The position numbers were made by a program, and so were the translations under genes. From Heliocybe sulcata (taxonomy: Eukaryota > Basidiomycota > Agaricomycetes > Gloeophyllales > Gloeophyllaceae), in contig ML213532.1 in NCBI GenBank assembly GCA_004369045.1, positions 176,314-226,220 of the forward strand: a stretch of 49,907 bases of DNA, read 5' to 3'. The notes beneath the pieces were generated by a model. That model was given only the letters and a program-made list of their open reading frames with translations, had not been told where the DNA came from and made no database searches. The stretch's first letter is position 1; the number at the start of each line of letters is the position of its first letter. Positions 2,399 to 37,194 of the stretch are shown here, piece after piece.

Positions 2399-5204
2399 AT
2401 GAGAATGCCAGTGAATGGCATAATTAGCGTCTGGAAGGTGACGCTTCGTCATTGGCGAGATGTTCGCAACAGGAAGCATATTGTCTATGTTTCAGGCCGG
2501 CAGGAAAGAAAATTGCCCTATCTCCCACCTACAGGCACTGAGTTTGTGCAGAGGCGGTGGTCATTTGCATCGAAAGCGCTCGCCAACCAGAGCAAACACT
2601 GTATCCCCAAGTCCGACATTCCTGCTGGCGCTGTCGCCGGCCTGGCCGGACGCCCAGCCCTGCTAATACGTACTCTGAACAAGAACCGACTAGATGTCAA
2701 AGACTTTGTTGATCTTACCGGGCGAATAAATAGAACTGTGCGCTTTCCAATGGCACCTGAAGAACGTTGGCTTAAAATCCACTATTTGGAACTAGGCCAT
2801 AAGAAAGGTGGTGACTGTATACCATTCCCTCCGGAGTCTCAGGGATTTCTGTACTGGCATCTCGAACCCCATGCGCCGCCTATATCAGGGCAGGTCCGCT
2901 TTCGCACCACCACATCTCCTGACCCTGCTACCTTTCCCAGTGGGCATGACTTGCAGCTTCCAGACGCCGGGACTTGGAATATACCACTCTTTCGCATTGC
3001 TCGCGCGTTGAAGTACTCTGGGATCCGTGCACTCCTTCTCTCCGAGAAGTTGGTAACAGCAGACGTGCTGGGTGCTGCCGTTTCTGCCTCCTCTCAAGAG
3101 AAACTGCGTCTACCCAAGTCCGACATTCCTTCTACCGCTACCGGGCTCCGCAAAGACTCATCCCTGCCACTGCGCACCCTGAAGCAGGCACGACTAATCG
3201 TCGAGGACTTCGTCGATCTTGCTGGGCGAGTATCGAAAGATGTACGCTTTCCAATGGCACCTGAAGAACCCAAGCTTCATACGCTCTATTTCCGCCGAGA
3301 TGGGAAGTATATTTCATTCCCTCAGGACTCACAAGGATTCTTCTACTGGCATGTTGCACCTGACGCGCCTCCTGTATCAGGGCAGGTCCGCTTTCGCACC
3401 ACCGCATCCTCTGACCCGGCTACCTTTCCAAGTGGGCGTGACTTGCAGCTTCCAAACGGCCGGATCTGGCATATATCCCTTTTTTCTATTGCTCGCCGGT
3501 CACAGTACTCTGGCCTTCGTGCACACATTCTATTCGAGAGTATTGTAACGGCAAAGACGTTGGATACTGCCCGTAATATTGCTGCCTCCTCTCAAGACAG
3601 ACGTCGTATTCCCAAGTCCGACATTCGTGCTCCCTCTGCCACCAGGCTCATCGGACGCCCAGCCCTGCTCTTGCGTCGTCTGAATAAGAACCGACTAGAT
3701 ATACAAGACTTTGTTAATCTTACTGGTCAAACCTTGAAAATTGTCCGCTTCCCAGTGGCCCCTGAAGAACCTAGACTTCTAATGCGCTATTTCCAGTCAG
3801 GTGGTCGTACAACACCGTTCCCTCCGGATTCTCACGGATTCCTCTACTGGCATCTGGAGTCCGATGCGCCCCCTATATTAGGGCAGGTCCGCTTTCGCAT
3901 CACGACATCCTCAGACCCGGCTACCTTCCCAAGTGGCCGCGACTTGCAGCTGCCTCACGGTGGGACTTGGAAGATACCGCTCTTCCGCATTGCTCGCTGG
4001 TCAGGATACTCTGGACTTCGTGCACAGCTTCTCTCCGAGAAGTTGGTAACGGCGAAGGTGCTGGATACTGTAATGAACAGTTCAGCCTCCTATCAAAACC
4101 AGCATCGTATTCCCAAGTCCGATATTCTTGCTACCGCTACCATCGGGCTCCGCAAGGGCTCAGCCCTGCCATTGCGCACCCTGAACCAGGCACTCGTAGA
4201 TGAGAAGGACTTTGTCGATCTTGCTGGCCGAGTGTCAAGATTTATGCGCTGTCCAATGGCGCCCGAAGAACCCCGCTTTCAAATGCGCTATGTCGAGTCA
4301 GGTGGTCGTAATATACCATTTCCTCCAGATTCCCAGGGATTCTTCTACTGGCATCTCGACCCTGATGCACCGCCTGTATCCGGGCAGGTTCGCTTTCGCA
4401 CCGCGACGTCCTCCGACCTGGCTACCTTTCCAACTGGGCGCGACTTGCAGCTCCCAGACGGCCGGATGTGGCATATATCGCTCTTTGCTATTGCTCACCA
4501 GTCACGGTACTGTGGCCTTCGTGCACACCTTCTCTCCGAGGGGTTGGTAACAGCAAAGGTGCTGGATACTGCCTTGAATATTTCTGCCCAGAAATGGAAA
4601 AGGATAGACCGTCTAGCTACCGATAGTCGTCTCATTTGGAAGTTCGCGCAGAGATTTCTTGTGGATCTTCCAAGCGCTCGGGTAGGACTTTGGATTATAG
4701 GAAGCTCAGCAGGAGAACGGCTGAACTTGCCTCCTCTATTCTCGATCTGTTCCCGGGAAACTGAGAGCACAATGACCTGCTACGTTCTGAGTGGTAGTTC
4801 GGACTTGGGGGTCTCTCCCCAGACCGGCAAGGATGACTTTGCGAAGAGAGTCGATTACAGGTCCTTTACAGGTACGTTGTTCCAACTGTGTTTTGCTGAG
4901 ATACTTACGAGCAGTCCTATACTGTTCAGGGCGAGCTCTGGTTCAGTTCGAACGTTCGACACTACCCGAGCACAATGGCACTCGAACCGTCGTTCTCCGT
5001 ATCCTCAAAGTCATGACGAAATCAGACTCTGATGACGCATCCTGGATGACGGAAACGCTGGAGGATGGCTTGCATATGACAGGGATCCACCAGCACATAT
5101 GGTCACTGGATGTCGACCACCCTAAGCCTGGGAGTGGTTTACCTTCCTCGTCGGCGAAAGCCCTAAGGATTCTATTCGATAACGAAGCCCTCCAAGAGCG
5201 TTAA
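2399..5204 (+). CDS. R1: four-domain array repeat protein
   Basis: Two exons, 2399-4871 and 4930-5204, joined over a 58-nt intron (GTACGT donor, CTTAC branch-like motif, TTCAG acceptor), give about 915 residues. The first ~60 residues are basic with few acids and end in QRRWSFASK, which resembles a mitochondrial presequence and its cleavage region. Four copies of a ~165-residue domain follow; their YWH(L/V) cores are coded at 2852, 3344, 3845 and 4346. Each copy reads roughly DFVDLxGR, then RFPxAPEEP, FPPDSQGFxYWHL, SGQVRFR, SDPATFPSGRDLQLP, GLRAHLLSE, LVTAKVLD. A cap domain (LIWKFAQRFLVDLPS, WIIGSSAGERL) and an acidic tail close the protein. The tail stops 7-8 codons earlier than in R4-R6 because of a base change creating TAA. 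Function unknown; I recall similar single-domain hypothetical proteins in polypore genomes, but this is memory and not checked. Confidence 0.8.
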
Positions 5205-5717
5205 GACCTCCGAAAACCTAAGCTATGAGCTGGCACGCTCGATCATCTCCGCTTCAGTGCTCATATCGTGCCTTATTCATGGGGATTTGCGAGCCTACCA
5301 AGACCAGGTTCATATGGACCGTATACGTGCGCCACCTTGTTCCTATAGTATGATTCGGCGGTCGAACCTCCGGCTTTGTAAACCTACGTATGTCATTATT
5401 TTTGCCTGTGATATATTACTGATCCACTCCAGCTTTAAGAAGCATTGATGTTTGCCAAAAAGGTAGATGAACCCAATCGTTAATTCCTCAGGTTTCATCA
5501 GAATGATCGACTTCGCAGACGTAACGTTGGACACAACTTTTACGGAGGACGATCCGATATTTAATATAATGCTGATGCAGCACGGGAAAGCGAACGTTGC
5601 CGACGTCGCGCCAGCGATGTCGAGGATATTATGATCCATTGGCGCAAGCAGGCCATGTCGAGCGTTTGTATATTATGTCAAGTCGCGGATTTGCATTCGC
5701 ATTGAGAAGAATAGTGC
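5205..5717. repeat. 3' flank of R1 (short T module)
   Basis: The first ~250 bases align with the 3' flanks of R2, R4, R5 and R6 (shared ATCTCCGCTTCAGTGCTCAT and CCTATAGTATGA stretches) and probably contain the R1 3' UTR. Bases ~5470-5717 are not shared with the other units and show no recognisable gene. Confidence 0.5.
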
Positions 5718-8977: not shown

Positions 8978-11900
8978 ATGAATGGCATAATTAGCGCCTC
9001 GAAGCTGACACTTCGTCATTGGCGAGACGTTCAAAACGGGAAGCACGTCGTCTCTGTTCTAGGTCGGCCGGCAAGATTATCGCTCTACCTCACATCTGCG
9101 TCCATTAGTCTCGTGCGCAAGCGGTGGGCATCCGCGGGTAAAGCGTCCGACAGCCATCGTATCACTCAGGCCAGTATACCTGCTATCACTGCTGCCGCCA
9201 GGCTCTCTGGACGCTCAGCACTGCTATTGCGTACTCTGAGTAAGGACCGACTAGATGCAGAAGACTTTGTTGATATTACCGGTCAGACCTCAAAGACCGT
9301 GCGCTTTCCAGCGGCACCTGAAGAACCTAGCCTTGAAATACGCTATTTCCAGTCAAGTGGTCGCAAAACACCATTCCCTCCAGATTCTCGCAGATTCTTC
9401 TACTGGCATCTCGAGTCTGATGCGCTGCCTGTATCAGGGCAGGTCCGCTTTCACACCACGACATCATCCGACCCGGCTACCTTCTCAAGTGGGCGTGACT
9501 TGCAGCTGCCAGACGGTCGGATATGGCATGTACCGCTCTTCCGCATTGCTCGTGGGTCACAGTACTCGGGACTTCGTGCACAGCTTCTCTCCGAGAACCT
9601 GGTAATAGCCAAGGCGATGGATACGGCTCTGAATGGTTCCGCCTCCTTTCAAGGCCACCATCGTATTCCCAACTCCGGCATTCCTGATACCACCGCTGCA
9701 GGCCTCCCCACCTCTGCTCTGCTATTGCACACTCTGAACCAGACGCGACTACACGTGGACGATTTTGCTGATCTTACTGGGCGAGTAAAGAGAGCTCTAC
9801 GCTTCCCATCGGTGCCTGAAGAACCTGGGTTTGAAATGCACTATTTTCGCTCACCTTGGGGTGATCGTAAGTGTATACCGTTCCCTCCCGATTCTCGGGG
9901 ATTCGTCTACTGGTATCTAGAGCGTAATGCACCACCTTTATCAGGGCAGGTCCGCTTTCGCGCCACGACATCCTCTGACCCGGCTACATTTCCAAGTGGG
10001 CGCGACTTACAGCTGCCAGACGGACGGACTTGGAATATACCGCTCGCCCGCATTGCTCACGCGTCAAAGTACTCTGGTCTTCGTGCCCAACTTCTGTTTG
10101 AGAAGCTGTTAACGACACAGATGTTGGATAATGCCTCGAACATTTCTGCCTCCTATCAAAACAGACCTCGTATTCCCAAGTCCGACCTTCCCGCTACCGC
10201 CGCCATCAGGCTCCGTAGACGCTCAGCTCAGCCCTTGCGCACCCTGAAGCAGGCAGGCTTGCAAGTCGAAGACTTTTTGGCTATCGCTGGGAGAGTAACG
10301 AAAAATATACGCTTTCCATTGCCGCATGAAGAACCTAGCCTTGAAATGTGCTATTTCCAGTCAGGTGGTCGTAAAACGCCATTCCCTCCGGATTCTCAGG
10401 GATTCCTCTACTGGCATCTCAACCCTGATGCACCACCTGTATCCGGGCAGATCCGCTTTCGCATCACGAAATCCTCTGACCCGGCTACCTTTCCATGTGG
10501 GCGCGACTTGCAACTGCCAAACGGCCGGACTTGGAACATATCGCTGTCACGCATTGCTCACGCATCGAAGTACTCTGCGCTTCGTGAGCGACTCCTCTCC
10601 GAGAAGTTGGTAACGGCGAAGGTGCTGGATACGGTCTGGGACAGTTCTGCCTCCTCTCAGGACAAACCTTGTCCCCTCAAGTTCGCCATTCCTGCTGCCA
10701 CAGTCACCAGGATCCAGAGATCCTCAGCCCTGCTATTGCGCACTCTAGACCCGGCACGACTAGAGGTTGAAGACTTCGTTGATATTGCTGGGCGAGTAAC
10801 AAAAACTATACGCTTTCCGTTGGCACCTGAAGAACCCAGGCTTGAAATGCACTATTTCAACTCAGGACGTCGTTGTATACCATTTCCTCAGGACTCTCAA
10901 GGCTTTCTTTACTGGTGCCTCGAGCCGGATGCACCCCCTGGATCCGGACAGGTCCGATTCCGTACCACGTCATCGTCTGACCCGGCTACCTTTCCAAGTG
11001 GGCGCGACTTGCAGCTCCCAGACGGCCGGACGTGGCATATACCACTCTCCCGCATTACTCGCCGATCACAGTACTTTGGCCTTCGTGCACACCTTCTGTC
11101 GGAGGAGTTGGTGACGGCGGCGGCGCTGGATAGTGCTCTGAATATTTGTACCTCCTCTCGAGGCCAACATCGCACTCGTGTGTCCGACGCTCCTTCCACC
11201 GCCGCTACCGGGCTTCGCAACCGTTCAACACTGCCATTGCGCACACTGAATCAGACACGAATAGATGCGGAAGACTTCGTTGATCTTGCTGGGCGATTCA
11301 CGAAACTTATGCGCTTTCCACTGGTGCCTGAAGAACCCAGCTTTCGACTGCAATATGTCGAGTCAGGTGGTCGTGCTATACCATTTCCTCCTGATGCCCA
11401 GGGATTCTTCTACTGGCATCTTGAATCTGATAGGCTGCCTTTATCCGGACAGGTCCGCTTTCGCACCACGGTGTCGTCGGACCCGGCTACCTTCCCAACT
11501 GGCCGCGACTTGCAGCTACCAAACGGCGGGACTTGGCGTATATCGCTCTCTCATATTGCGCAACGGTTACATTACTTGGGGCTCCGTGCACACCTTCTCT
11601 CCGAGACGTTGGTAACGGCAAAGGTGCTGGAGACTGCCTTGAACGGTTCTGCCTCCTCTCAAGATGAACATCGTATTTCCAAGTCCGACGTTCCTGCTAC
11701 CGCCCCCACGGGGCTCCGCACAGGCTCAGCCCTGCAGTTGCGTACCCTGGACAAGACACGACTAAATGTCGCAGACTTTACCGACCTTTCTGGGGGGGTG
11801 TTCAAAACTGTGCGGTTTGCATTGGTGGCTGAAGAACTCAGGCTTAGAATGCGCTATCTCGAGTCAGGTGGTCGTAGTACACCATTCCCTTCAAATTCCC

Positions 11901-12642
11901 AGGGATTTCTCTACTGGCATCTAGACCCTGGTGCGCCACCTGTATCAGGGCAGGTCCGCTTTCGCACCACCACATCCTCTAACCCTGCCACCTTCCCAAT
12001 TGGGCGCGACTTGCAGCTGCCAGACGGCCGGATGTGGCATATCTCGCTCTTCGATATTGCCCGGCGGGCAAAGTACTCTGGCCTTCGTGCACACCTTCTC
12101 TCTGAGAATTTGGTAACAGTAAATGTACTGAACACTGCCCAGACTATCTCTGCACGGACCGGGAAAAAGACATATCATCCCGCCACCGGTAGCTTGCTCA
12201 TTTGGACGTTCGGGCAAAGTTTTCTTGTAGATCTTACAAGCAATGTGTCGTCGCTTTGGGTTATAGGACACTCAGCAGGGGAACGTCTTGTCTTGCCGTC
12301 GCTGTCCTCGGTCTGCGTCCGCGAAACGGACAGAACCGAGATCTGCTATGTCCTGAGCGAAAATCGCGACCCGCGCGGCTCTCGGCAGACCGCTAAGTAT
12401 GACTTTTTGAATGGAGTCGATTACACGCCGTTGGCGGGTGCGTAGCTGCGACTGCTCTTTTCCTGAAATACTTACGAGCAGCCGCATAATGTTCAGGGCG
12501 AGCTCTGGTTCAGTTTGAGCGCTCGACACTGCCAGAGCACGAGGGCACCCGAACCGTCGTTCTCCGTGTCCTTAAAGTCATGACAAACTCAGACGGCTCT
12601 GAAGATGCGTCCTGGATGCTGGCACCGCAGGAAAAGGCTTGA
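8978..12642 (+). CDS. R2: six-domain array repeat protein, truncated tail
   Basis: Exons 8978-12437 and 12497-12642 around a 59-nt intron give about 1201 residues. The frame is open a further 65 codons upstream to an ATG at 8783. I chose 8978 because MNGIISASK there aligns with the starts of R1, R5 and R6, and the upstream stretch contains the promoter palindrome. Six domains have their YW cores coded at 9401, 9908, 10409, 10910, 11411 and 11912, almost exactly 501 bp apart. The last copy carries the FDIARRAKYSG variant seen in the last position of R5 and R6. In the tail exon one base is missing compared with R4 (around CAGGAAAAGGCTTGA), which shifts the frame and stops the tail about 50 residues early. 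The main body is undamaged, so the protein may still be made. Confidence 0.78.
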
Positions 12643-13404
12643 ATATGACGGAGATACACGAACACTGTTCGTCAGTGGATGTCGACAAGCCTCAGCCTGG
12701 CAGTGGACTACTTCCCTCGTCGGCGAAAGCGCTAAGGATTCTATTCGATAACGAAGCTTTCCAAGGGCGTCAAGATGGCCCAGGAGCGAAGGAATGAGCT
12801 CGCACAGTCGATCATCTGCGCTTCAGTGCTCGTATCATGCTTTTTTCGTGGCGACTAACGACCATAAAAAGAACAGGTTCTGATGGACCGTACGCGAAAA
12901 CGTGCACCGCGTTATTCCGATAGTATGACTAAGACCTCAACAGTTGAGTCTATGGTTTTGTAACTGAATAAGTCGTCATTTGCGCGTGATACATTGATCA
13001 ACCTCCACTTAGAGATGTCTCCCAAAAGCCATCCTACCCCGTAAAATGGCGGTATTCATGGTATTAATCTGTTGCTTCAGCAGCATAACATGTGCGCTAC
13101 CTTCCCTCCAGTCTAAGTCACTCACTCTGATATGGGGTGCGGACGTCCTCGGAGTACCTTGCGTTGCGGTTCTTCCGTTTTACATTATACCCTTAGCACC
13201 GATATGTGCGTCTTCTGGTACCTCTATATCGAGAGCGGTGGCTATATAACGTATATCAGGCTGGCGACACTAGACTCGCGACTAGTCAGCAGAGATAAAC
13301 ATTCAACAGGTAAGGATACTAGCTAGGTTGACGGTCAACGTTAACAACAAGGAGCTCCTCGATCGCCATTTCTGATGGCGTGACCGTCAGCACGTGTCGT
13401 TCAG
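12643..13404. repeat. 3' flank of R2 (T module, first part)
   Basis: The old tail-exon sequence continues in a shifted frame to about 12800. The shared 3' flank follows (ATCATCTGCGCTTCAGTGCTC, then a CTTCCCTCCAGTCTAAGTCAC stretch and a TAACGTATATCAGG stretch near 13250), comparable with 24940-25400 and 29215-29720. No gene is seen; the small ORFs here are not conserved. Confidence 0.45.
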
Positions 13405-16558: not shown

Positions 16559-16638
16559 AATTACTTCCTCCTGCGTCGGTAGGTTGTCCTCTACTGTGGC
16601 ATTGAACTCCCGAGTTCCATTCTCTGACGGCAGTTCCC

Positions 16639-19431
16639 ATGGCAGAGCATATGAGCGGAATAGCTAAGGCCTCGAAGCTGAAGCTTCGTTGTGGGCGACA
16701 CGTTCACAACAGGATGCACTGCCAGGAGAGATTGCCGTCCTACCTCCGATCTACATTCAATAGCCTTGTGAAGAAGCGGTGGGCTTCCACGAAAAAAGCG
16801 CTCGACAAACGATGTATTTTTAAGGCGGCATGCATGCCTGCCACCACAGCTGCAGGGCTTCGGAAAAACTCAGCCATACCATTACGCACTCTAAACTACA
16901 CCAGACTGAAAGCCGACGACTTCATTAACCTTACTGGGCGATTAACGAAAACTGTGCGTGTTGAAGTGGCACCTGAAGAACCTAGCTTTCAAATGCGCTA
17001 TTTCGAGTCGGGTGGTCGTGATATACCATTCCCTTCACATTCTGAGGGATTTCTCTACTGGCATCTCCACCGGAGGCACCGCGTATATCAGGGCAGGTTT
17101 GCTTTCGTACCACGACGTCCTCCGACCCGGCTTCCTTTTCAAGTGGGCGCGACTTGCAACTGCCAGGCAGCAGACTCTGGCATATATCGCTCTTTGCTAT
17201 TGCTCGCCGATCACAGTACCGTGGCCTTCGTGCATGTCTTCTGTCCGAGGAGTTGATAACGAGAAAGATGCTGACTACTGCCATGAAACGTTCTGCACCC
17301 TCTCAAGATGACCATCGTACTCCCAAGACCGTCCATCCTGCTACCGCCGCCGCCGGGCTCCGCAAAGGCTCACCCCTGCTCTTGCATACTCTGGATAAGA
17401 ATCGACTACATGTCGAAGACTTTGTTGATCTTACTGGGCTAGTATCGAAAGATGTGCGCTTTCCAGTGGCACCTGACAAACCCAAACTTCAAACGCTCTA
17501 TTTCCGCAGAGATCGGAAGCATATGCCGTTCCCTCAAGATTCACAGGGATTTTTCTATTGGCATCTTGACCCTGATGCACCGCCTGCATCAGGGCAGGTT
17601 CGCTTTCGGACCACAAGATCCTCTGACCCGGCTACCTTTCCAAGCGGGCGGGACTTGCATCTACCAGACGGCCGGGTTTGGAATATACCGCTCTCCCGCA
17701 TTTCCCGCCGGTCACAGTACTCCGACCTTCGTGCACATCTTCTCTTAGAGGAGTTGGTAACAGCACAGGTGCTGGATACTGCGCAGAACAGTTCCGCCTC
17801 CTATCGAGAGAAACATCGTATCCCCAAGTCTGACATTCGTGCTCCCTCTGCCACCGTGCTCACCGGAGGCCCAGCCTTGTTACTGCATACTCTTGATAAG
17901 AACCGACTAGATATAGAAGACTTTACTGATCTTACTGGTCGAAAATGGAAACTCGTGCGGTTCACAGTGGCGCCCAAAGAACACAGGCTTGCAATGTGCT
18001 ATGTCAGGTCAGGTGGTCGTCAGGTACCATTCCCTTCAAATTCCCAGGGATTCTTCTACTGGCATCTCCAGCCTGATACTCCGCCTGTATCCGGGCAGGT
18101 TCGCTTTCGTATCACGAAAACCTGCGACCCGGATACCTTTCCAAGTGGCCGTGACTTGCAGCTGCCAGACGGCCGGATCTGGCATATACCGCTCTTCCGC
18201 ATTGCTCGCCAGTTACGATACTCTGGGCTTCGTGCATACCTGCTGTTTGAGGAGTTGGTAACGGAAAAAATGCTGGATACTGCTCTGAACAGTTCTTCCT
18301 CCTCTCAAGGCGAACATTGTATTCCCAAGTCCGACGATCGTGCTAAGGTCGCCTCGGGGCTTCGCAAAGGCTCAACCCTGCCGTTGCGCACCCTGAACCA
18401 GGCACGACCAAATGTCGAAGACTTTGCCGATCTTACTGGGCGTGTATCAAGAAGTGTGCGCTTTGCATTGGCGCCTGAAGAACCGGGGCTTGAAATGCCC
18501 TATTTCAAGTCAGGCGGTCGTACTATACAGTTCCCTCCAGAGTCCCAGGGATTCTTCTACTGGCATCTCGACCCTGATGCACCGCCTGTATCCGGGCAAC
18601 TCCGCTTTCGTACCACCAGATCCTCTGACCCGGCTAGGTTTCCGACCGGCCGCGACTTACAGCTGCCAGACGGTCGGACTTGGAATATACCGCTCTTCCG
18701 CATTGCACGCGGCTCTAAATACTCTGGGCTTCGTGCTCACCTTCTCTCAGAGAAGCTGGTAACAGCAGATGTTCTCCATACTGCCCTGAAAATTTCTTCC
18801 CGCAGAGGTGAAAGGATAGAACATCCAGCGACCAGTAGTCTTCTCATTTGGAAATTCGGGCAGAGGTTTCTCGTGGATCTTCCAAGCACGCAGGTGACAC
18901 TTTGGATTATAGGAAGCTCAGCAGGAGAACGGCTTGTCTTGCCGTCGCTGTCCTCGGTCTGTGTCCGTGAATCGCGTGAATCGGAGAGCACCTGGATCTG
19001 CTATGTCTTGGGCGAACCTTCTGGCTTGCACATCTCTCCCCACAGCGCCAAGAATGACTTCGCGGGGGGAGCCGATTACATACCGTTCAAGGGTGCGTGG
19101 CCACAAATGCTCTTGTCCCGCGATACTTACGAGTAGTCCTACAATCTTCAGTGCGTGCTCTGGTTCAGTTCGAACGCTCGACACTCCCAGAGCACAAGGG
19201 CACCCGAACCGTCGTTCTCCGTATTGTCAACTCATGGCAAAATCAGACGGCTCTGATGACGCGCCCGGGATGCCGGAAATGCAGGACGATGGCTTGGATA
19301 TGACAGGGATGCACCAGCACGCTTGGTCGGTGAACGTCGATCAGCCTCAGCCCGGGAGTCAGTTACTTGGCCCGTTGGCGAAAGCACTGAGGATTCTATT
19401 CGATACCGAAGCTTCTTCAAGAGTGTCATGA
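16639..19431 (+). pseudogene. R3: four-domain array gene with frameshifts
   Basis: Starts at ATG 16639 with a short basic leader (KKRWASTKK near residue 48). The first domain is in frame up to YWHL at 17056, then one base is missing compared with the other copies. The distance to the next YW core (17556) is 500 bp instead of 501, and the frame continues in the ORF starting formally at 17154. Domains 2-4 (cores at 17556, 18057, 18558) and the cap are intact. The intron is at 19093-19151 (59 nt) and the tail exon starts at 19152. A second one-base deletion near 19228 (GTCAACTCATGG against CTCAAAGTCATGA) shifts the tail; the original tail frame resumes and ends at 19431. Two independent one-base losses mark it as decaying unless they are assembly errors. 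Confidence 0.75.
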
Positions 19432-19489: not shown

Positions 19490-21060
19490 TCTTCGCATCC
19501 ACCGTTGCGTTGTGATATATGAGGAGCGGCAATTGATCCACGATGTCGCCTCCCGGCGAAGATTTCACCTGCAACTCGACGGCGGACTTCAGTCCTGTAT
19601 CCAAGCCGATCTGTTGTGCACGGCTTCGCAAACAAGTCGACATGGTCTCTTGTGAGCTATATCTAAGACATCTTGGTATTCTCCAACAGGACAGAGCACC
19701 TTCTGAAGAGCAGACTATCAGTACGCCGGTGGTATCGCGGTTCCCTTGGCTTGCCTGATTTTCTACGCGTTCCATTGTCTATGTGCCACTCGTATAGTTG
19801 GCTTGAAGCTCGCCTCCGAATAGTCCCGCGACATGAGCATCGCTCGACGCCTAGGTAGTAAGCAACCGACTCTCCTCGACTCTACCTATGATTAAGCGCC
19901 TAGCAGTAGCGACGATATTCGCTGCCCATTGATTGATATCAGTTTAGATAGACGGGATCATCTCGATTTGTCGAGGGGCGCTGGTTACACACCGAATAAG
20001 AATATGTCTACTCACTCTCCGAGTTCGGACGGTACGATCGCAGACCAAGAGGATGACCGAAGACAGAATGCAAATAAGAGATATGCATGTCCTCTGACCG
20101 TCCGAGTCTCTACCCATTCGAAAGTCCTGTTCTCAGGTCAACTCAAGCGATGCATTAGGAGGTAGGTGCGGTCGGCCTGACGAATATGACCGATGCAATA
20201 AATGGATGCCTTGCCTCTGTAGTGAGCAGTCAACGGCTGCCATTCTCCGGAGGCACTCGAAGATATTGGAGAAATGTCAACCAAGCTGCGAAGATACGGT
20301 GTGTGTGCAGTCCAAACGTATATGTTCATCCCTCCAGCTTACAGCATCCGACAACTCGACTGTCCCCAAACATCTGACTACAGATGGCTATAGCTAACGA
20401 TCTGGCGAAGGTGGCACCTAGAGTCATCCATCAGTTCCCACCACAATACTGAACGGCCTGCAAGCTTACCATATCTCTCACAAAGCCGATTATACGCCGT
20501 CGCCAGCACCTCCTTGCCATCTTGCTGATCGTCCTCCCCCGGTCACACGACGCAGCAAGACATGACCCGATAGGCTTTGCATGCTTCTTCTGACTTTCCC
20601 CGAGAGCTCAATGCAGATGCGCAATCGAGAATTGCGTAAACTCATTCTTCAAATTCTAGATAACAGGGGAGACGCGGTTGAGGTCCCTGCAGATGCTGCC
20701 AAGAGTGAGAGTGTCGAGGAGCGTTGAAAGGCAGGAAGTTGCGAGCCACGTTCTTCCAGTACGATTTCAGCGAGTTGTACAGCATGCTAGCAGAGCAGGT
20801 CCGAGTGGTGGCGAGGAGTGGCGACAGTTTTCGAGACGGCATACAGTGCTCACATACCGTAGCCCAGATCTACGCAAAGACCGTGTTGGACCTTATTTGC
20901 AGAGTTACAACAACGGGCCAACGACGCTCTAGTCTGGCTATACGTCGAGCTAGCGATAATTAGGACAACAATATTCCACGAGTAAGGATACTAGCTAGGG
21001 TTGACAGTCAATGTCAGACAGCTCCCGACACTATTTCTCATCGCGTGACGTCAGCATGTC
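19490..21060. repeat. Upstream module M, copy B
   Basis: Copy of the spacer in front of R4, directly after the R3 tail with no distal T module. It shares with copy D (31490-33230) long stretches such as the region around 20130-20420 (ACTCAAGCGATGCATTAGGAGG) and 20640-20740. Minus-strand fragments include 19775-19443 (GLDTGLKSAVELQVKSSPGG) and 20842-20642 (LKSYWKNVARNFLPFN). They correspond to fragments in copies A, C and D but in shifting frames. Unrecognised, decayed. Confidence 0.6.
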
Positions 21061-21083
21061 GCTCAGGTCACGCGTCCGTGACA
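21043..21083 (+). promoter_or_regulatory. Array palindrome box of R4
   Basis: GCGTGACGTCA at 21043-21053 and GTCACGCGTCCGTGACA at 21067-21083, about 104 bp before the R4 start. Sequence and spacing are nearly identical to those of R6. Confidence 0.6.
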
Positions 21084-21186
21084 AGTTGGTTCGTACTTCG
21101 AACTTTCAATCCTCCTGCGCCGGTAGGTTGTCCTGTACACAACAATAAATGCCCGAGTCTTATTCCATGACAGCAGCTTGTATGGC

Positions 21187-24100
21187 ATGGTGGCCCGCGG
21201 GAACGGCATCATCAGTGCCTCGAAGCCGATACTTCGCAATTGGCGAGACGTTCGCAACGGGAGGCGCGTCTTCTGCGTTTCAGGCGGCCAGGAGAGATTA
21301 CCAGCCTATCTACCATCCACATGCAATAGCCTCGTGCAAAGGCGGTGGGCATCCGCGGGGAAAACGCTCGTCTATGAAGACAAGCATCGTATTCCCTCGT
21401 CCAACATTCCTGCTACCGCCGCCACCGGGTCCCGCAAAGGCTCGGCACTGTCATTGCGTACCCTGAAGCAGTCAAGACTAACTACCGAAGACTTTACCGA
21501 TTTTAGTGGGCGATTAACGAAAACAGTGCGCTTTCCAGCAGCACCTGAAGAAGCTACCTTTCAAATGCGCTACTACGGGCAAGGTATACCCTTTCCTCCA
21601 GAGTCGCATGGATTCTTCTACTGGCATCTCGAGCCTGATGCACCGCCTGCCTCAGGGCATGTTCGCTTTCGTACCACGGCATCGTCTGATCCGGCTAGTT
21701 TTCCAACTGGCCGAGACTTGCAGTTGCCAGACGGCCGTATATGGCATATATCGCTGTCTAATATTGCTCTCCGGTCACAGTACTCTGGGCTTCGTGCACA
21801 CCTGCTCTCCGAGACATTGGTAACAGAAAAGGTGCTGGATTTGTCCCTCAACCGTTCTGCCGTTCATCAAGAGAAACATAGTATTTCCGAGTCCAATACT
21901 ACTGCTACCGGCGCCGCCATCCCAGTACGCCAAGCCCGGCAGTTGCGTGCGCTGGACCAAACGCGACTCAATAGCGAAGACTTTCTCGATCTTACTGGGC
22001 GATTAACGAAAACAGTGCACTTCCATATGGCACCTGAAGAACCTAGCCTTGAAATGCGCTATTTCCGGTCAGGTGGTCGTAACATGCCATTCCCTCCAGA
22101 TTGTGAGGGATTCCTCTACTGGCATCTCAACCCTGATGTGCCGCCTGCATCCGGGCAGGTCCGCTTTCGCACCACAACATCCTCCGACACGGCGACCTTT
22201 CCGAGTGGGCGCGACTTACAGCTGCCAAATGGCCAGACTTGGAATATACCGCTGTTCCGCATTGCTCGAGAGTCGCAGTACTCGGGGCTCTGTGCTCATC
22301 TTCTCGCTGAGAAGTTACTAACGGCGAAAATGCTGGATACTGCTCTGAATATTGCTTCCTCCTCTCAAGACAGACCCTGTATTCGCAAGTCCGGTATTGC
22401 TGCTACCGGAGCCACTGGGCCTCGCAAGGGATTAGCCCTTCTATTGCGCAGGCTGAACCAGGCAGAACTAGCCATCGAAGACTTTGTCGATCTTACTGGG
22501 CGATTAACGAAAACAGTGCACTTCCATATGGCACCTGAAGACCCTAGCCTTGAAATGCGCTATTTCCAGTCAGGTGGTCGTAAAACGCCATTCCCTCCGG
22601 ATTCTCAGGGATTCCTCTACTGGCATCTCAACCCTGATGCACCGCCTGTATCTGGACAGGTCCGCTTTCGCACCACAACTTCCTCCGACACGGCGACCTT
22701 TCCGAGTGGGCGCGACTTGCAGCTGCCAAATGGCCGGACTTGGAATATACCGCTGTTCCGCATTGCTCGAGGGTCGCAGTACTCGGGGCTCCGTGCGCAT
22801 CTTCTCGCTGAGAGGCTGGTAACACAAAAGGTTCTGGATACGGTCCCGAACACTCCTGCCTCCTCTCAATACAAACATGATACTGCCAAGTCCGACATTC
22901 CTGCTGCCGCCGCCCCCGGGCTCTGCAAAGGCTCAGTCCCGCCGTTGCGCACCTTGAATCAGACGCGACTAGCCATCGAAGACTTCGTCGATAATACTGG
23001 GCTATTAGCGAGCACAGTGTGCTTTCCAGGGGCACCTGAGGAACTCAGATTTCAAATGCGCTATTACGGACAAGGCATACCATTCCCTCCGCATTCTCAT
23101 GGATTCCTCTACTGGCATCTCGAGTCTGGTGCGCCGCCTGTATCAGGCCAGGTTCGCTTTCGTACCACGACATCATCTGACCCGGCCACCTTTCCAACTG
23201 GCCGCGACTTGCAGCAGCCAGACGGCGGGACTTGGAATATACCGCTGTCCCGCATTGCTCGCCAATCAGGGTACTCTGGGCTTCGTGCGCAACTTCTCTT
23301 TGAGAAGTTGGTAACAGCAAAGGTGCTCGATACTACCCTGGACAGCTCCGCCTCCAATCACGGCAAACATTCCATTCCCAAGCCCGACAACACTGCTACC
23401 GCCGCCACTGGGCTCCACAACGGCTCTGCCCTGTCATTGCGCACCCTAATCCGGACGCGACTAGATGTCAAAGACTTCGTCGATCCTACTGGACGATTAA
23501 CGAAAACTGTGCACTTTCCAGCGGCACCTGAAGAGCCCAGCTTTCAAATGCGCTATTACGGACAAGGTATACCCTTCCCTCCAGAGTCTCACGGATTCTT
23601 CTACTGGCACCTCGAGCCTAATGCACCGCCTGCATCAGGCCAGATCCGCTTTCGTACCACGACGTCGTCTGACCCGGCCGCCTTTCAAACTGGCCGCGAC
23701 TTGCAGCTCCCAGACGGCCGCATGTGGCATATATCGCTCTCTGCTATTGCTCGACGGTCACAGTACTCCGGCCTTCATGCATACCTTCTATCAGAGGAGT
23801 TGATAGCGGCAAAGGTACTGAAGGCCGCCGTTCCTGCTACCACCGTCGCCGCTCTCCGCACAGGCTCGACCTCGCAATTGCACAGCCTGAACCCAGGGAA
23901 ACTGGAAGTCGAAGACTTCGTTGATATGACTGGGCTCTTAATGAAACCTGTGCGCTTTCCATTGGCACCTGGAGAACCTAGCTTTGAGATGCGCTATTAC
24001 AAGTCAGGTCGTCGTGACATACCATTCCCTTCGGGTTCTCAGGGATTCCTCTACTGGCATCTTGAACCTGATGCGCCGCCTGTGTCCGGTCAGGTCCGGT

Positions 24101-24938
24101 TTCGTACCACGAGATCCTCTGATCCGGCTACCTTTCCAAGGGGGCGTGACTTGCGGCTGCCAAACGGCCGGACTTGGAATGTATCGCCTTTTGACATTGC
24201 TTGCCGGGCTAAGTACTCGGGGATTCGTGCGCATCTCTTATCCGAAAAGTTGGTAACAACGAATGTCTTGGATACTGCCCTCAATATGTCTACCTCGTCC
24301 CGGGAAAAGATGTACCGTCCAGACTCCGGTAGCCTTATCATTTGGAAGTTCGGCCAGAGATTTTTTGTGGATCTTCCAAACACCGTGGCGGCACTCTGGA
24401 TCATAGGAAACTCAACGGTAGAACGGCTTACATTGCCGTCCCTGTTCGCGGTCCTTGTCCGAGACTCGGAGACTGCCGGGATCTGCTATGTCCTGAGCCA
24501 AAAGTTCAAGTCGCGCGTCTCTCGGCAGACCGGTAGGCATGACTTCTTGAGTGGAGTTGATTACACGCCATTCGCGGGTGCGTCGCTACGACGGCTCTTC
24601 TCCTGAAATACTGACGAGCAGCCCTTTGATGTTCAGGGCGAGCTCTGGTTCAATTCGAACGCTCTACCCTACCAGAGCACAAGGGTACGCGAACCGTCGT
24701 CCTCCGCATCCTGAAAGTCATGACAAAGTCCGACGGCTCTGATGACGCGTCCTGGACGCCGGAGCCGCAGGAGGATGGCTTGGATATGACAGGGATGCAG
24801 GAGCACTGTTCGTCAGTGGATGTCGACAAGCCTCAGCCTGGCAGTGGACTACTTCCCTCGTCAGCGAAAGCCCTAAGGATTCTATTCGATAACGAAGCTC
24901 TCCAAGAGAGTAAAGACGGCAGAGGAGCTAAGTCATGA
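21187..24938 (+). CDS. R4: six-domain array repeat protein
   Basis: Exons 21187-24577 and 24637-24938 (59-nt intron) give about 1230 residues. I chose ATG at 21187 (MVARGNGIISASKP) because it aligns with the R6 start; codons upstream need a non-ATG start. The leader is rich in Arg and Ser and ends at QRRWASAGK. YWHL cores are coded at 21619, 22117, 22618, 23110, 23602 and 24052. Domains 2 and 3 are nearly identical to each other (both with VHFHMAPE and SSDTATFPSGRDLQLPNG), pointing to a recent internal duplication. The linker before domain 6 is about 50 bp shorter than usual. The cap has FGQRFFVDLPNTVAALW, and the tail exon (RALVQFERSTLPEHKGTR onward) is full length and ends GRGAKS. Function unknown. 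Confidence 0.82.
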
Positions 24939-26195
24939 GCTGGCACACTTGATCATTTCCGCTTCACTGCTCATATCGTGTTTTCTTCATGGCGACTAAT
25001 GAACGTAACAACACCAGGTTCAGACGGACGGTAGACGTGCGCCGCGTTACTCCTATAGTATGACTACGACCTCGGCGGTCGAGCCTACGGCTTTGTAAAC
25101 CACGAAATTTGGCAGATACGTTGATCCTCTCCAGATTGGGAAGTGTGTGTCGAAGGCCATGGCATCTCCGACAGCGTAATGTTTCGGCTACCTTTACTCA
25201 AGTCACACAGCTCGATAGCGGGTTCTGGACGTCTTCCGGACAGTGTTCACTGCGGTTTCTTACAGTTTACATTATAAACCACCGCTGACATGTGCATCTT
25301 CCGATACCTCTCTATGTCATTACACTTCACCTATAACCAACGCCCTTGCACTAGCGGCGACATCAGCCTTCAATATGCATATGGTTTCCTTTCGCTACCC
25401 CTCTAATGGATGAATGAACGCGGTACAGTCTGTCCAGTTAAATGGGTTATGTAGAAAGCACACCTTACTTGTCGGATCCGTCTTACCGATAGATGTCACG
25501 CAGGGATACGCTGGGCTCCCTCATGGTGGGTCGCTGCTGCATCCGGGTTGGTTTATAATCAGTAGCTCCTCTTATTTCCTGACGCTAATAGGTTCTGTGC
25601 TGAAAGGTCGAGTCATGTACTGTCAGCCGTCCGGTTGATCCACACTACAATGATACAGTACTGTCGCGTCTGATCCTGGCCTAGCGCGGAGCCAGCGATG
25701 GCTGTGCAACTCGCGTGGTAACTCAGTGCCGCATGACGAGCCAATCAGGACGGGGTACGTGCGACTAGCTGCAGCAGACGAGAGGAGGGCATGCTCGACA
25801 CCAGATCGTTCACCATGAAGCTGTTAGTCCTAGTATGCCTCCGGTACCAGTCCGACGGTGAGTCAACATGCTCATGGAGCATCAGAGGATAATGGGATGG
25901 TGAGCATCGAACGCGCAAAGGCAGTGCCTTGGCACCCCAGCGACTTAACAGATCTCCAGCGCGATCTAGGACTCCTAAAGTCGCATTGTATATGAATAAT
26001 TGTGAATACTTTTTGAGATCCTGTCATCAACTCGAGGTCGACAGCGCAAGGCCCAAAGTCATCAGTCACCACTAGACTCAAATAATACCCACTCAGTTAC
26101 TGCTTCTTCCTTCTCCTCGGTTTCTGGTATCGGTACTAGATGTGTCTGACTCCCCTAAGCACGCTGATATCACTCGGTCCTCGTTCATACCTACG
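24939..26195. repeat. 3' flank of R4 (T module with gene remnant)
   Basis: Shared 3' flank after the R4 stop, then the TTGTCGGATCCG stretch at ~25470 that also occurs at 29755 and 38360. Bases ~25780-26160 are a strongly eroded copy of the spliced gene better seen at 30166 and 39223. Its donor region (CCGACGGTGAGTCA at ~25855) and end region (CTCAGTTACTGCTTC at ~26093, TGTCTGAC at ~26141) are recognisable. The gene is dead in this unit. Confidence 0.5.
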
Positions 26196-27240: not shown

Positions 27241-27242
27241 AG

Positions 27243-27421: not shown

Positions 27422-29214
27422 ATGATTAGAGTCTCGAAACCGACATTTCGTCATTGGCGAGATGTTCGCGATAGGAAGCATCTCGTCTATGTTACAGGCT
27501 CCCAGAACATGTTATTGGCATGCCTCTCATTTACATGCAGTAGTCCTGTGCAGAAGCGGTGGGCATCTGCGGCGAAAGCGCGGGTCTATCCAGGGAAACG
27601 TCGTGTTCCCCCGTCCAACATTCCTGCTACTGCCGCCACCTGGCCCCCCACCTCTGCCCTGCTACTGCATACGCTGAACCAGGCGCGACTGGATGACGAA
27701 GATTTCCTTGATCTTAGTGGGCGAGTAGAGAGGACTGTCCGGTCTTCATTGGCATCTGGAGAAGCCCAGTTTCAAATGCGCTATTTCCAGTCTGATGGTC
27801 GCGATATACCATTCCCTCCGGATTCTCATGGATTCCTCTACTGGCATATAGAGTTTGGTGCACCGCCTGTCGAAGGGCAGGTTCGCTTTCGTATCACCAA
27901 ATCATCTGATTCGGCTACCTTTCATAGTGGGCGCGACTTGCATCTGCCAAACGGCAAGACTTGGAATATACCGCTCTCCCGCATTGCTCGCAGGTCAGAG
28001 TACTCTGGGCTTCGTGCGCATCTTCTCTCCGAGAAGCTGGTAACAGCTCAGGTGCTGAAGACCGCCCTGAATGGTTCTCCCTCCTCTCAAGACGCACATC
28101 GTATTCCCAAATCCGACATTCCTTCTACCGCCGCCACTGGGCTCCGCCATGGCTCTGCCCTCCGATTGCGCACCCTAAAGCGGACACGACTAGATGTCAA
28201 AGACTTTGTCGATCTTACTGGACGATTAACGAAAACTGTCCACTTTCCAGCGGCACATGAAGAGCCCAGCTTTCAAATGCGCTATTACGGACAAGGTGTA
28301 CCCTTTTCTCCAGAGTCTCATGGATTCTTCTACTGGCATCTAGACCCTGATGCGCCTCCTGTATCCGGGCAAGTCCGCTTTCGCACCACCGCATCCTCTG
28401 ACCCGGCCACCTTCCCAATTGGGCACGACTTGCAGCTGCCGGACGGCCGGATCTGGCATATATCGCTCTTTGATATTGCCCGCCGGGCAACGTACTCTGG
28501 CCTTCGTGCACACCTTCTCTCTGAGAAGTTGGTAACAGTGAAGCTGCTGGATAGTGCCTCGAGCATTACTGCTGCGAAAGGGGAAAAGGTAGGCCATCCG
28601 GCCACCGGTAGCTTGCTCATTTGGAAGTTTGGACAGAGATTTCTTGTGGATTTTCCAAGCATCAAGACCGCAATTTGGATTTTAGGAAGCTCAATGGCAG
28701 AACGCCTTCTCTTACCGCGTCTGTTCTCGGTTCATGTCCGAGAATCAGAGAGCGCCGGGATCTGCTATGTACTGAGCGAAAGTTCTAAGTCGTCCGTCTC
28801 TGGGCAGACCGGTAGGCATGGCTTCTTGAACGGAGTCGATTATACGCCGTTCGCAGGTGCGTCGCTACGACTGCTCTTATGAAATACTTACGAGCAGCCG
28901 AATAATGTTCAGGGCGAGCTTTGGTTCAGTTCGAACGCTCTACCCTACCAGAGCACAAGGGTACGCGAACCGTCGTCCTCCGTATCCTCAAAGTCATGAA
29001 AAAATCGGACGGCTCTGATGACGCGTCCTGGACGCCGGAGCCGCAGGAGGATGGCTTGGATATGTCAGGGATGCACCAGCACGCTTGGTCAGTGGATGTC
29101 GACCAGCCTCAGCCTGGGAGTGGATTTCGTCCCTCGTCAGCGAAAGCGCTACGCATTCTTTTCGATAACGAGGCTTCCCAAAAACGTCGAGATCGCCGAA
29201 GAGCTAAGTCATGA
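27422..29214 (+). CDS. R5: two-domain array repeat protein
   Basis: Exons 27422-28856 and 28913-29214 (56-nt intron) give about 578 residues, the shortest member. The first ATG in the aligned frame is at 27422 (MIRVSKPTFRHW). The upstream GTG at 27413 is in frame but not a usual start. The leader ends at QKRWASAAK. Domains have YWHI at 27839 and YWHL at 28331. Domain 2 and the linker before it (SPSSQDAHRIPKSDIPSTAA) are almost the same as domains 3-4 of R6, so R5 may be a contracted relative of R6. The C-terminal cap and full-length tail are intact, which shows the frame is kept even with two domains. Confidence 0.8.
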
Positions 29215-31160: not shown

Positions 31161-31489
31161 CTCTCGTAAGGACATTGACACCAAACAGCCCTCCTTCATT
31201 GGTACGTCTTGCATACCACTTTTTCGCTGTTGGCGGTTGATGGCACACCCGCCGCTATCTGCAAGACCGTAGCGGCACCTACAGAGCATGTCGGGCTCCT
31301 GATGCAGAATCAAGGGGCCATGCTCGCGAATGGAAGGCTTGATCGACCATACGCGGTATCATGTATTGTTCTAAAGACTTACACTTCCGAAGGTGCTCTG
31401 CCGACTGCGCGCGTCGCTTCCCGGCACGGGCTCTTTCGTATCCACCTAGTACGTTCATGATGGCACATCGCTAGCCACGATCCCTCCAG
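31161..31489 (+). other. Shared end of T module, unit 5
   Basis: This stretch matches 40149-40470. A common open segment reads TVAAPTEHVGLLMQNQ (31270-31310 here). In unit 6 it is part of a 75-codon ORF from 40140; here the frame is shifted upstream. It could be a downstream small gene or a further exon of the T gene. Confidence 0.4.
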
Positions 31490-33230: not shown

Positions 33231-33249
33231 AGGTCACGCGTCCGTGACA
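33208..33249 (+). promoter_or_regulatory. Array palindrome box of R6
   Basis: GCGTGACGTCAGCAT at 33209 and GTCACGCGTCCGTGACA at 33233-33249, 104 bp before the R6 start. Confidence 0.6.
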
Positions 33250-33352
33250 AGTTGGTTCGTACTCGAACTTTCAATCCTCCTGCGCCGGTAGGTTGTCCTC
33301 TACTACAACAATAAATGCCCGAGTTTTATTCTGTGACAGCAACCTGTATGAG

Positions 33353-36300
33353 ATGATGGCCCGCGGAAACGGCATCATCAGCGCCTCGAAGCCGATACTT
33401 CGCAATTGGCAAAACATTCGCAACGGGAGGCGCGTCTTCTGCGTTTCAGGCCGCCAGGAGAGATTACCGGCCTGCCTACCATTCACATGCAATAACCTTT
33501 TGCAAAGGCGGTGGAAATCCGCAGGGAAAGCGCTCGTCTATGAAGACAAGCATCGTATTCGCCGGTCCAACGTTCCTGCTACCGCCTCCACCGGGCCCCG
33601 CAAAGGCTCAGCCCTGCCATTGCGGACCCTAAACCAGACACAACTAAATGCCGAAGATTTTGTCGACCTTTCCGGGAGAGTGTGCAAAACTGTGCGGTCT
33701 GCACTGGTGCCTGAAGGACTCGCGCTTCGAATGTACTACCTCGAAGTCAGCCATAGCTGCCATACGAGAGGTTGTAAAGGTATACCATTCCCTCCGGAGT
33801 CTCACGGTTTCCTCTACTGGCATCTCCAGCCTGATGGGCCGCCCGTATCTGGACATGTCCGCTTTCGCATCACGAAATCCTCTGACCCGGCTACCTTTCC
33901 AAGCGGGCACGACTTGCAGCTTCCAGACGGCCGGATCTGGAATATACCACTCTTGCGCATTGCTCGCTGTTCAAGGTACTCGGGACTCCGTGTACACCTT
34001 CTCTCCGAGAATCTGGTAACAGCAAAGGTGCTGGATTCGGCCCTCAACCATTCTGCCGTTCATCAAGACAAAAGTCGTATTCCCAAGTCCGATACGCCTG
34101 CTACCGTCGCCGCCATCCCCGTACGTTCAGCCCTGCAGTTGCATACGCTGGACCAGACACGACTCAATGACGAAGATTTTCATGATCTCACTGGGCGAGT
34201 AGAGAGTCCTCTCCGCTTTCCATTAGTGCCTGAAGAACCTAGCTTTCGGATCCGCTATTACCAGTCAGGTCGTCGTCACATACCATTCCCTCCGGAGTCT
34301 CACGGTTTCCTCTACTGGCATCTCCAGCCTGATGGGCCGCCCGTATCTGAACATGTCCGCTTTCGCATCACGAAATCCTCTGACCCGGCTACCTTTCCAA
34401 GCGGGCACGACTTGCAGCTTCCAGACGGCCGGACTTGGAATATACCGCTCTTCCGCATTGCTCGCCATTCAGGGTACTCTGGGCTTCGTGCGCATCTTCT
34501 CTCCGAGAAGCTGGTAACAGCTCAGATGCTGAAGACCACCCTGAGTGGTTCTCCCTCCTCCCAAGACGCACATCGTATTCCCAAATCTGACATTCCTTCT
34601 ACCGCCGCCACTGGGCTCCGCCATGGCTCTGCCCTGCGATTGCGCACCCTAAACCGGCCACGACTAGATGTCAAAGACTTTGTCAATCTTACTGGACGAT
34701 TATCGACAACTGTGCACTTTCCAATGGCACGTGAAGATTCCAGCTTTAAAATGCGCTATGTCAAGTCAGGTGGTTGTCTCATACCATTCCCTCCGGATTC
34801 TCATGGGTTCCTCTACTGGCACCTGGAACCTGACGCTCCGCCTGCATCCGGGCAGGTGCGCTTTCGTACCACTAAATCCTACCGCTATAATACCTTTCCA
34901 ACTGGGCGCGACTTGCAGCTGCCAGATGGTCGGATCTGGCATATACCGTTCTTCCGCATTGCTCACGCGTCAAAATACTCTGGGCTTCGTGCGCATCTTC
35001 TCTCCGAGAACCTGGTAACAGCAAACGTGCTGGATACGGCCCTGAATACTTCTACCTCCTCTCAAGACGAACGTCATACCCCCAAGTCCGACATTCGTTC
35101 TACCGCCGCCACTGGGCTCCGCCATGGCTCTGCCCTGCGACTGCGCACCCTAAACCGGACACGACTAGATGTCAAAGACTTTGTCGATCTTACCGGACGA
35201 TCAACGAAAACTGTGCACTTTCCAATAGCACCTCAAGAGCCCAGCTTTCAAATGCGCTATTACGGACAAGGTGTACCCTTTTCTCCAGAGTCTCATGGAT
35301 TCTTCTACTGGCATCTAGACCCTGATGCGCCTCCTGTATCCGGGCAAGTCCGCTTTCGCACCACCGCATCCTCTGACCCGGCCACCTTCCCAATTGGGCG
35401 CGACTTGCAGCTGCCAGACGGCCGGATCTGGCATATATCGCTCTTCGATATTGCCCGCCGGGCAAAGTACTCTGGCCTTCGTGCAAACCTTCTCTCTGAG
35501 AAGTTGGTAACAGTAAATGTACTGGATACTGCCTTGAACGGCTCTGCCTCCTATCGAGCCAAACATCGTATTCCCAAGTCCGATATCACTGCTACCGTTG
35601 CCACCAACCTCCGCAAAAATTCCGCCCTGACATTGCAAAGCCTGAACCAGGCACGACTAGATTTCGAAGACTTCGTCCATCTTTCCGGGCGAGTATCGAA
35701 ATCTGTGCGCTTTCCAATGGCGCCTGAAGAGCCTAACTTTGGGCTGCACTATTCCCGCTCGGGTGGTCGTGATATACCATTCCCTGCAGTTTCTCAAGGA
35801 TTCCTCTACTGGTATCTCGAACCTGATGCACCGTCTGCATCCGGGCAGGTCCGTTTTCGTACCACGACATCCTGCGACCCGAATACCTTTCCAAGTGGCC
35901 GCGACCTGCAGCTGCCGGACGGCGAGCCTTGGAATATACCGCTCGCCCGCATTGCTCATGTGTCAAAGTACTCTGGCCTTCGTACATACCTTCTCTCAGA
36001 GAAGCTGGTAACGGAAAAGGTGCTGAATACCGTCCCGAACAGTTCGGTATCTTCTCAAGGCAAACATCGTATCCATAAATCCGATATTCCTGCTACCGTT
36101 GCCACCCGGCTCCACGAAGGCTCAGGTCTGCCATTGCACACCCTGAACCAGACACGACTAGACGTCAACCAATTCGTCAATCTTACCGGTCAAAAATCTA
36201 AAAGGGTGCGCTTTCCAGTGGCACCTGAAGAATCTAGCTTTGAAATGCGCTATTTCCGCCCAGGTGGTCGTGATATGCCATTCCCTCCAGATTCTCAGGG

Positions 36301-37194
36301 ATTCCTCTACTGGCATCTCGACCCTGATGCACCGCCTGTATCCGGCCAGGTCCGCTTTCGCACCGCGACATCCTCTGACCCGGCTACCTTCCCAATTGGG
36401 CGCGACTTGCAGCTGCCAGACGGCCGGATGTGGCATATATCGCTCTTTGATATTGCCGAGCGGGCAAAGTACTCTGGCCTTCGTATACATCTTCTCTCTG
36501 AGAAGTTGGTAACAGTAAACGTACTGGATACCGCCCAGAACATCTCTTCACGGAACGGGAAAAGGACATACCGTCCCGCCACCGGTAGTTTGCTCATTTG
36601 GAAGTTCGGGCAGAGTTTTCTTGTGGATCTTACCAGAAATGAGTCGTCGCTTTGGGTTATAGGACGCTCAGCAGTAGAACGTCTTGTCTTGCCGTCGCTG
36701 TCCTCGGTCTGTGTCCGCAAATCGGACAGAACCGAGATTTGCTATGTCCTGAGCGGAAGTCACGAATCGCGCACCTCTCGACAGACCACTATGCATGACT
36801 TTTTGAATGGAGTCGAGTACACGCCGTTCGCGGGTGCGTCGCTACGATGGATTTTCTCCTAAAGTACTTACGAGAAGCCTTATAATGTTCAGGGCGAGCT
36901 CTGGTTCAGTTCGAGCGCTCTACTCTACCAGAGCACAAGGGTACGCGAACCGTCGTCCTCCGTATCCTCAAAGTCATGAAAAAATCGGACGGCTCTGATG
37001 ACGCGTCCTGGACGCCGGAGCCGCAGGAGGATGGCTTGGATATGTCAGGGATGCACCAGCACGCTTGGTCAGTGGATGTCCACCACCCTCAGCCCGGGAG
37101 TGGATTACTTTCCTCGTCGGCAAAAGCCCTAAGGATTCTATTCGATAACGAAGCTCTCCAAGGGCATCGAGACGGCAGAGGAGCTAAGTCATGA
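33353..37194 (+). CDS. R6: six-domain array repeat protein
   Basis: Exons 33353-36833 and 36893-37194 (59-nt intron) give about 1260 residues. The start is MMARGNGIISASKP; the open frame extends upstream only without an ATG. Residues 1-58 contain eleven Lys/Arg and a single Glu and end at QRRWKSAGK, as expected of a mitochondrial presequence. Domain cores lie at residues ~155, 321, 488, 652, 819 and 986. The cap (LIWKFGQSFLVDLTRN, WVIGRSAVERLVLP) is at ~1067-1160 and the tail at 1161-1260. Domains 1 and 2 are near copies (both YWHLQPDGPPVS and RFRITKSSDPATF). Domain 4 is almost identical to domain 2 of R5. Domain 3 has an odd KSYRYNTFPTG in place of SSDPATFPSG. No enzyme motif is apparent; the domain looks beta-rich. 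Confidence 0.82.

Follow-up and report, generated by a model that had tools for sequence, protein, structure and literature searches.

Within a 49,907-nt window of Heliocybe sulcata DNA (assembly GCA_004369045.1, contig ML213532.1, hereafter C30; C30:176314-226220 of a 31.6-Mb genome on 51 contigs), a tandem array of six genes was analysed, each of which encodes several copies of a unit here called D. Distances, trees and identity profiles show that whole in-frame D units have been moved within and between the genes by unequal crossing-over or conversion, and self-comparison of the window shows that the gene copies arose by segmental duplication including flanking DNA. According to the best explanation, to which a probability of about 0.42 is assigned, the array would belong to a nuclear, mitochondrion-targeted family with recombination-shuffled binding units, possibly tracking a changing mitochondrial target; of the family's clusters found, it is the richest in units.

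Exchange of units and history of the gene copies

By repeat search, a 300-nt core was found in 28 copies within six genes, all on the plus strand and with counts of 4-6-4-6-2-6, a layout that had been described by a first-pass annotation made from the sequence alone and that was recovered again with a hidden Markov model (HMM) of the unit. The core spacing of 492–507 bp given there agrees with the start-to-start spacing of D units within genes in 21/22 cases, the exception being the last spacing of gene 4 (450 bp); all spacings are multiples of 3. Copies were 61–87% identical to a 300-nt reference copy (20 comparisons, among the matches listed), and D units were 51–72% identical to a reference unit at the protein level. 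The HMM, built from the units of the window, scored 240–266 bits in 27/28 units, which excludes a chance origin of the repeats, and 102.5 and 115.3 bits in the two halves of the frameshifted first unit of gene 3.

Unequal crossing-over and conversion had also been suggested by the first-pass annotation, and this is borne out by units without a gene signature, a weak position signal, conflicting trees of the gene ends, and abrupt changes in identity. For 27/28 units (frameshifted gene 3 unit 1 left out), the mean unit distance was 0.259 within genes (n = 55) and 0.261 between genes (n = 296; permutation p 0.34), and among the three six-unit genes it was 0.247 for units at the same position (n = 18) versus 0.265 for other positions (n = 90). 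The unit tree joins the final units of genes 1, 2, 3, 4, and 6 with last units from contig C44 (support 90/87), while that of gene 5 is placed with unit 4 of gene 6 and a C44 unit. As same-position units are closer and last units cluster, the scrambling is not total. Unit 2 of gene 5 and unit 4 of gene 6 are the closest pair in the window, with a synonymous divergence (dS) of 0.137 and a nonsynonymous divergence (dN) of 0.074; between the last gene 5 unit and a near-identical C44 unit (L009:1471-1908), dS is 0.037, which suggests a recent exchange between contigs.

The 5′-end tree, which leaves out the C4 gene L008, pairs gene 4 with gene 6 and gene 1 with gene 2. The 3′-end tree conflicts with it: genes 2, 4, 5, and 6 are placed together with genes 1 and 3 outside, gene 6 joining gene 2, and gene 4 joining gene 5 and a C44 gene. 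Identity of gene pairs also shifts abruptly along the gene length. In genes 4 and 6, 525 aligned upstream and leader columns show 92.4% identity, and the sliding identity of the pair is 0.82–0.94 in the 5′ flank and leader (first 200-bp bin 0.65) and 0.69–0.83 in the units. Leader and tail of the two genes have dS values of 0.10 and 0.21, and the divergence K of their 5′ and 3′ flanks is 0.14 and 0.20, compared to a dS of 0.41 for the cap and 0.39–0.66 for the six units. This 2- to 6-fold step in dS is explained by unit exchange or conversion of the ends, and not readily by selection on the protein. The duplicated segments extend past the gene ends, as seen by self-BLAST in the duplicon of genes 4 and 6 (Table 1). 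A two-gene duplication unit (4+6, 4+6, 2+6) was considered as the origin of the alternating counts and is not supported by the 5′- and 3′-end trees.

An assembly artefact with duplicated or collapsed repeats is hardly credible: frameshifts in two of the genes could be sequencing errors, but most copies differ by ~18–30% in DNA, beyond what misassembly creates, and genes of the same architecture are located on other contigs.

Gene structure, the D unit, and the genome-wide family

Regarding the architecture that the first-pass annotation had taken to be common to the genes, the order leader, D units, cap, and tail was found in 6/6 genes, and a short intron between cap and tail is predicted for genes 1–6. 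In gene 3, the first unit and the tail are each divided over two frames, as is the tail of gene 2 (Table 1). Due to these split frames, genes 2 and 3 (2/6) look damaged or hold sequence errors. The D unit comprises ~150 residues, or ~167 residues including the linker.

Table 1. Positions within the window of the six genes and of the duplicated segment carrying gene 4
Feature	Position	Strand	Basis
Gene 1 exon 1: leader, 4 D units, cap	2399..4873	+	ORF (open reading frame) 2369-5032, HMM matches; start codon chosen, end approximate
Gene 1 D units	2654-3103, 3155-3604, 3659-4108, 4154-4603	+	HMM matches
Gene 1 exon 2 (tail)	4926..5201	+	Tail HMM, ORF 4791-5201, 151.2 bits
Gene 2 exon 1: leader, 6 D units (9212-12172), cap	8978..12439	+	ORF, HMM; ends approximate
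Gene 2 exon 2 (tail), two frames	12490..12794	+	Tail HMM in ORFs 12490-12639, 12603-12794
Gene 3 exon 1: leader, 4 D units (first 16864-17315, two frames: 16864-17106 and 17070-17315), cap	16639..19094	+	ORFs 16606-17253, 17046-19133; ends approximate
Gene 3 exon 2 (tail), two frames	19058..19428	+	Tail HMM in ORFs 18913-19428, 19058-19300; ends approximate
Gene 4 exon 1: leader, 6 D units (21436-24312), cap	21187..24579	+	ORF, HMM; ends approximate
Gene 4 exon 2 (tail)	24633..24935	+	Tail HMM, 177.5 bits
Gene 5 exon 1: leader, 2 D units (27650-28102, 28151-28588), cap	27422..28858	+	ORF, HMM; ends approximate
Gene 5 exon 2 (tail)	28909..29211	+	Tail HMM, 184.3 bits
Gene 6 exon 1: leader, 6 D units (33602-36568), cap	33353..36835	+	ORF, HMM; ends approximate
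Gene 6 exon 2 (tail)	36889..37191	+	Tail HMM, 182.2 bits
Duplicon: gene 4 with flanks	20087..25429	+	Self-BLAST vs 32222-37722 (gene 6), 77.7% over 5558 columns

The D family is a large domain family that is absent from the libraries searched, and the earlier statement that no described family has this architecture held in the Pfam, NCBIfam, and PDB-sequence searches. Comparison of the repeats with Pfam, which had been proposed as a check, gave nothing above the cut-off for 88 D units (best E-value 0.11), nor did a scan of five exon-1 ORFs, the exon-2 tails being outside the scan; for gene 3, the first ORF only was scanned and no family was found at an E-value of 0.1. No match was obtained for 19 diverse units in NCBIfam (bacterial and archaeal library), and PDB sequences were hit only at E-values of 0.15 or worse. 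Pattern matches in bacterial and archaeal contigs (55) and in viral contigs (26 and 42) yielded no confirmed relative, and no account of the D family was found in the literature searched, among the matches listed. Similar unnamed proteins presumably occur in mushroom-forming fungi. Structure prediction of one repeat, likewise proposed earlier, gave a confident mixed alpha/beta fold (predicted local distance difference test, pLDDT, 89.1; predicted template modelling score, pTM, 0.83) with no convincing match among PDB structures, although no unit-only Foldseek search stands behind that comparison. For cap and tail, the predicted structures were of low confidence. The idea that together they represent a degenerate extra copy of D is unsupported by sequence (profile comparison probability 0.42%, E-value 0.14) and left undecided by structure because of the low-confidence prediction of both.

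The six window genes are a minority of the family in this genome. Using gene 6 as query, at least 82 genome matches were obtained, compared to at least 124 for a C6 member and at least 110 for a more distant C6 member, with the weakest of the latter on C23 and C2. The tail query gave 62 matches and thus about 60 tail loci, as two pairs of these matches come from the tails of gene 2 and gene 3, each divided over two frames. Diverged members were located on at least 8 contigs. Among 53 gene or module loci counted, which comprise fetched loci only (window genes included, with further match loci existing), 33 carry a single unit, one of them partial (L064), and 20 carry two to six units; a 34-residue fragment (L030:45-146) was not counted. 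The multi-unit loci are the six of the window, eight on C44, and two each on C4, C7, and elsewhere on C30. Family-wide alignments contained 88 full-length units of 93 unit pieces and 18/38 tail rows, the latter picked by trial runs for sound alignment. Telomere repeats mark the start of C30, and family copies lie ~56–213 kb from that end.

Several further observations were made on family members and on the DNA around the genes. On C6, L046 (C6:451300-454900) has whole modules of unit, cap, and tail in tandem, unlike the unit-only repetition on C30. The single-unit member L039:459-1775 has its intron in frame without a stop, which leaves one 439-codon frame with unit and tail, and C23:122225-122452 is a weak match to D with stops (E-value 1.8e-5), possibly an old relic. 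Within the window, self-BLAST revealed a second duplication, located between genes 1/2 and between genes 2/3 (5879-8073 and 13722-16219, 68–75% identity), with opposite GC skew and no recognised gene, as well as a 1.6-kb duplicated segment outside the genes (30055-31602 and 39106-40613, 77% identity). The region 45288-49548 is a possible DNA-transposon remnant; it includes a minus-strand ORF (48022-49548), which we take to resemble basidiomycete Tnp2-type transposases and which had only an unrelated sub-threshold match in Pfam. ORF 45902-46171 had sub-threshold Pfam matches to C8 (E-value 0.0031) and DUF4218 (E-value 0.085).

Leaders and the variable stretch of D

Leaders were compared in 45 rows, in which some genes occur twice, the L037 start is wrong, and gene 5 and others are missing; they contained on average 9.1 Lys/Arg and 1.5 Asp/Glu in ~53 residues, their hydrophobic peak averaged 0.68, and 28/45 fit a loose basic-end pattern. 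The more distant members scored also had basic leaders in 8/8 cases (5–11 Lys/Arg and 1–4 Asp/Glu in the first 60 residues; L061 start doubtful). The highest 15-residue hydrophobic mean was 1.41 in the 45 rows and 1.62 in the leaders of distant members, and by composition no signal-peptide-like hydrophobic core was present in the leaders. The D units contain 11.9% Lys/Arg, 9.8% Asp/Glu, and on average 0.84 Cys. Judged against the general features of mitochondrial presequences, the leaders are probably of this type and the proteins probably imported.

Adhesion, one of the roles raised by the first-pass annotation, is disfavoured by these data. Recognition or conflict, the other roles raised there, would be plausible; a pattern of scrambled domain copies is otherwise seen in genes whose recognition has to keep changing. 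Fungal adhesins such as ALS form gene families with variable internal repeats, and the array resembles them as a gene family of varying internal repeat number; it differs from them in leaders without signal-peptide-like composition, in the 0.84 Cys per unit, and in the lack of an adhesin domain in the Pfam scans, so that secreted or surface adhesion or recognition proteins appear very improbable. Similarly improbable, if by a little less, are spore-killing or driving elements spreading as tandem arrays, a kind to which the wtf genes belong: the array, its turnover, and the damaged copies would suit them, but a scan of the leaders alone found no membrane-type hydrophobic stretch, and the spread of diverged members over at least 8 contigs does not fit.

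Pairwise dN/dS (omega) of the window units had a median of 0.44 (range 0.23–0.69), with 0/351 pairs above 1; outside the window, 2/1830 pairs exceeded 1. Along the window units, the ratio of nonsynonymous to synonymous differences per site (pN/pS) was 0.44–0.58 at the N-terminal end, 0.65–1.18 in residues 21–55, 0.17–0.42 in residues 56–105, and 0.64–0.80 at the linker end. For 15 columns, picked after the profile had been seen and evaluated by simple counts instead of codon models, with recombination and phylogeny ignored, pN/pS was 1.06 (bootstrap 0.97–1.15) in the window and 1.08 (1.03–1.13) in all 88 units. These values suggest that D has a variable face (residues ~36–52, pN/pS about 1) on a conserved scaffold; a loosely constrained loop fits too, because the columns are post hoc and pN/pS is also raised at the linker end.

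The main rival holds that ordinary birth and death expanded a mitochondrial family whose routine role is in binding or assembly, the variable stretch being a loose loop; tandem units would be gained and lost through unequal exchange, and diversity as such would not be selected. With a median omega of 0.44 that gives no strong hint of positive selection, frameshifted copies (genes 2 and 3) as well as fragments at other loci, and a single unit in 33/53 counted loci, this is quite possible. It accounts less well for the concentration of amino-acid change in part of D and for the finding that genes 4 and 6 have diverged in units and cap, not in leader, tail, or flanks.

Possible role in mitochondria and its implications

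For the mitochondrion-targeted family favoured here, the following course of events is proposed, of which duplication, shuffling, and constraint are shown by the sequences, and import, binding, and the kind of target are inferred. A nuclear multigene family, whose members have a mitochondrial-type leader, one to six compact alpha/beta D units, a cap, and a tail, gained gene copies by segmental duplication with flanks; unequal crossing-over or conversion then moved in-frame units of ~167 residues within and between genes. The proteins would be imported into mitochondria, where each D may offer a conserved scaffold and a variable stretch binding a target, and altered number or order of units would alter binding. 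The likeliest reason for the kept variability would be a changing target, which may be mitochondrial selfish elements, variable transcripts, or proteins.

Several observations weigh against this explanation. Two of the six genes are frameshifted, as neutral birth and death would give, and the slightly closer same-position units and the cluster of last units of genes 1–4 and 6 run counter to free shuffling. That genes 4 and 6 differ little in leader and flanks might stem from conversion acting on these parts only, and dN equals dS in their leaders (0.103 and 0.104). The variable face depends on post hoc columns and simple counts next to a raised linker end. Mitochondrial targeting was called from composition, not by a trained predictor, most leaders keep an Asp (HWRDVRN), and the family is not tied here to mitochondrial parasites.

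Among known systems, plant restorer-of-fertility-like pentatricopeptide repeat (PPR) genes are nuclear, mitochondrion-directed, clustered, repeat-bearing, and of fast turnover. The array is likewise nuclear, clustered, repeat-bearing, and fast in turnover, with mitochondrial direction suggested by leader composition. PPR is a helical 35-residue repeat, unlike D with its predicted mixed alpha/beta fold, and PPR motifs as well as WD, ANK, and TPR repeats were absent from the five exon-1 ORFs and 88 units scanned with Pfam. NACHT and NB-ARC domains were absent from the five exon-1 ORFs and the first ORF of gene 3, with tails outside the scan. According to one report on fungal NOD-like receptors (NLR), repeats of the Podospora nwd genes are exchanged within and between paralogs and vary in number, positively selected positions lie on predicted interaction surfaces of the repeats, and highly conserved NLR repeats are reported in ascomycetes and basidiomycetes (PMC4986451). 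D units are similar in being reshuffled within and between paralogs, in varying number, and in having variable positions on a conserved scaffold; exchange within and between paralogs, a trait of nwd/HNWD genes, is seen in the trees, distances, and identity profiles of the array. In contrast to those repeats, which are over 85% identical, the ~150-residue D units are 51–72% identical and stand behind a presequence-like leader.

A further reading is considered unlikely: combinatorial D arrays, renewed by recombination and unrelated to PPR or NLR proteins as far as sequence shows, would recognise fast-changing targets in mitochondria, be it selfish DNA, plasmids, mitoviruses, or variable transcripts. 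For the basidiomycete Heterobasidion parviporum, an interaction between nuclear and mitochondrial loci is reported, in which a non-conserved reading frame of the mitochondrion takes part (PMC10512249); no link of that case to the D family is claimed.

If the recognition of changing mitochondrial targets were true, the family would be a fungal counterpart of plant restorer genes built on another module, and mitonuclear conflict in fungi would become testable at a defined locus. Regardless of this, the locus offers a natural experiment, in which the flanks and leaders of genes 4 and 6 are little diverged and the unit arrays between them are far more diverged and shuffled.

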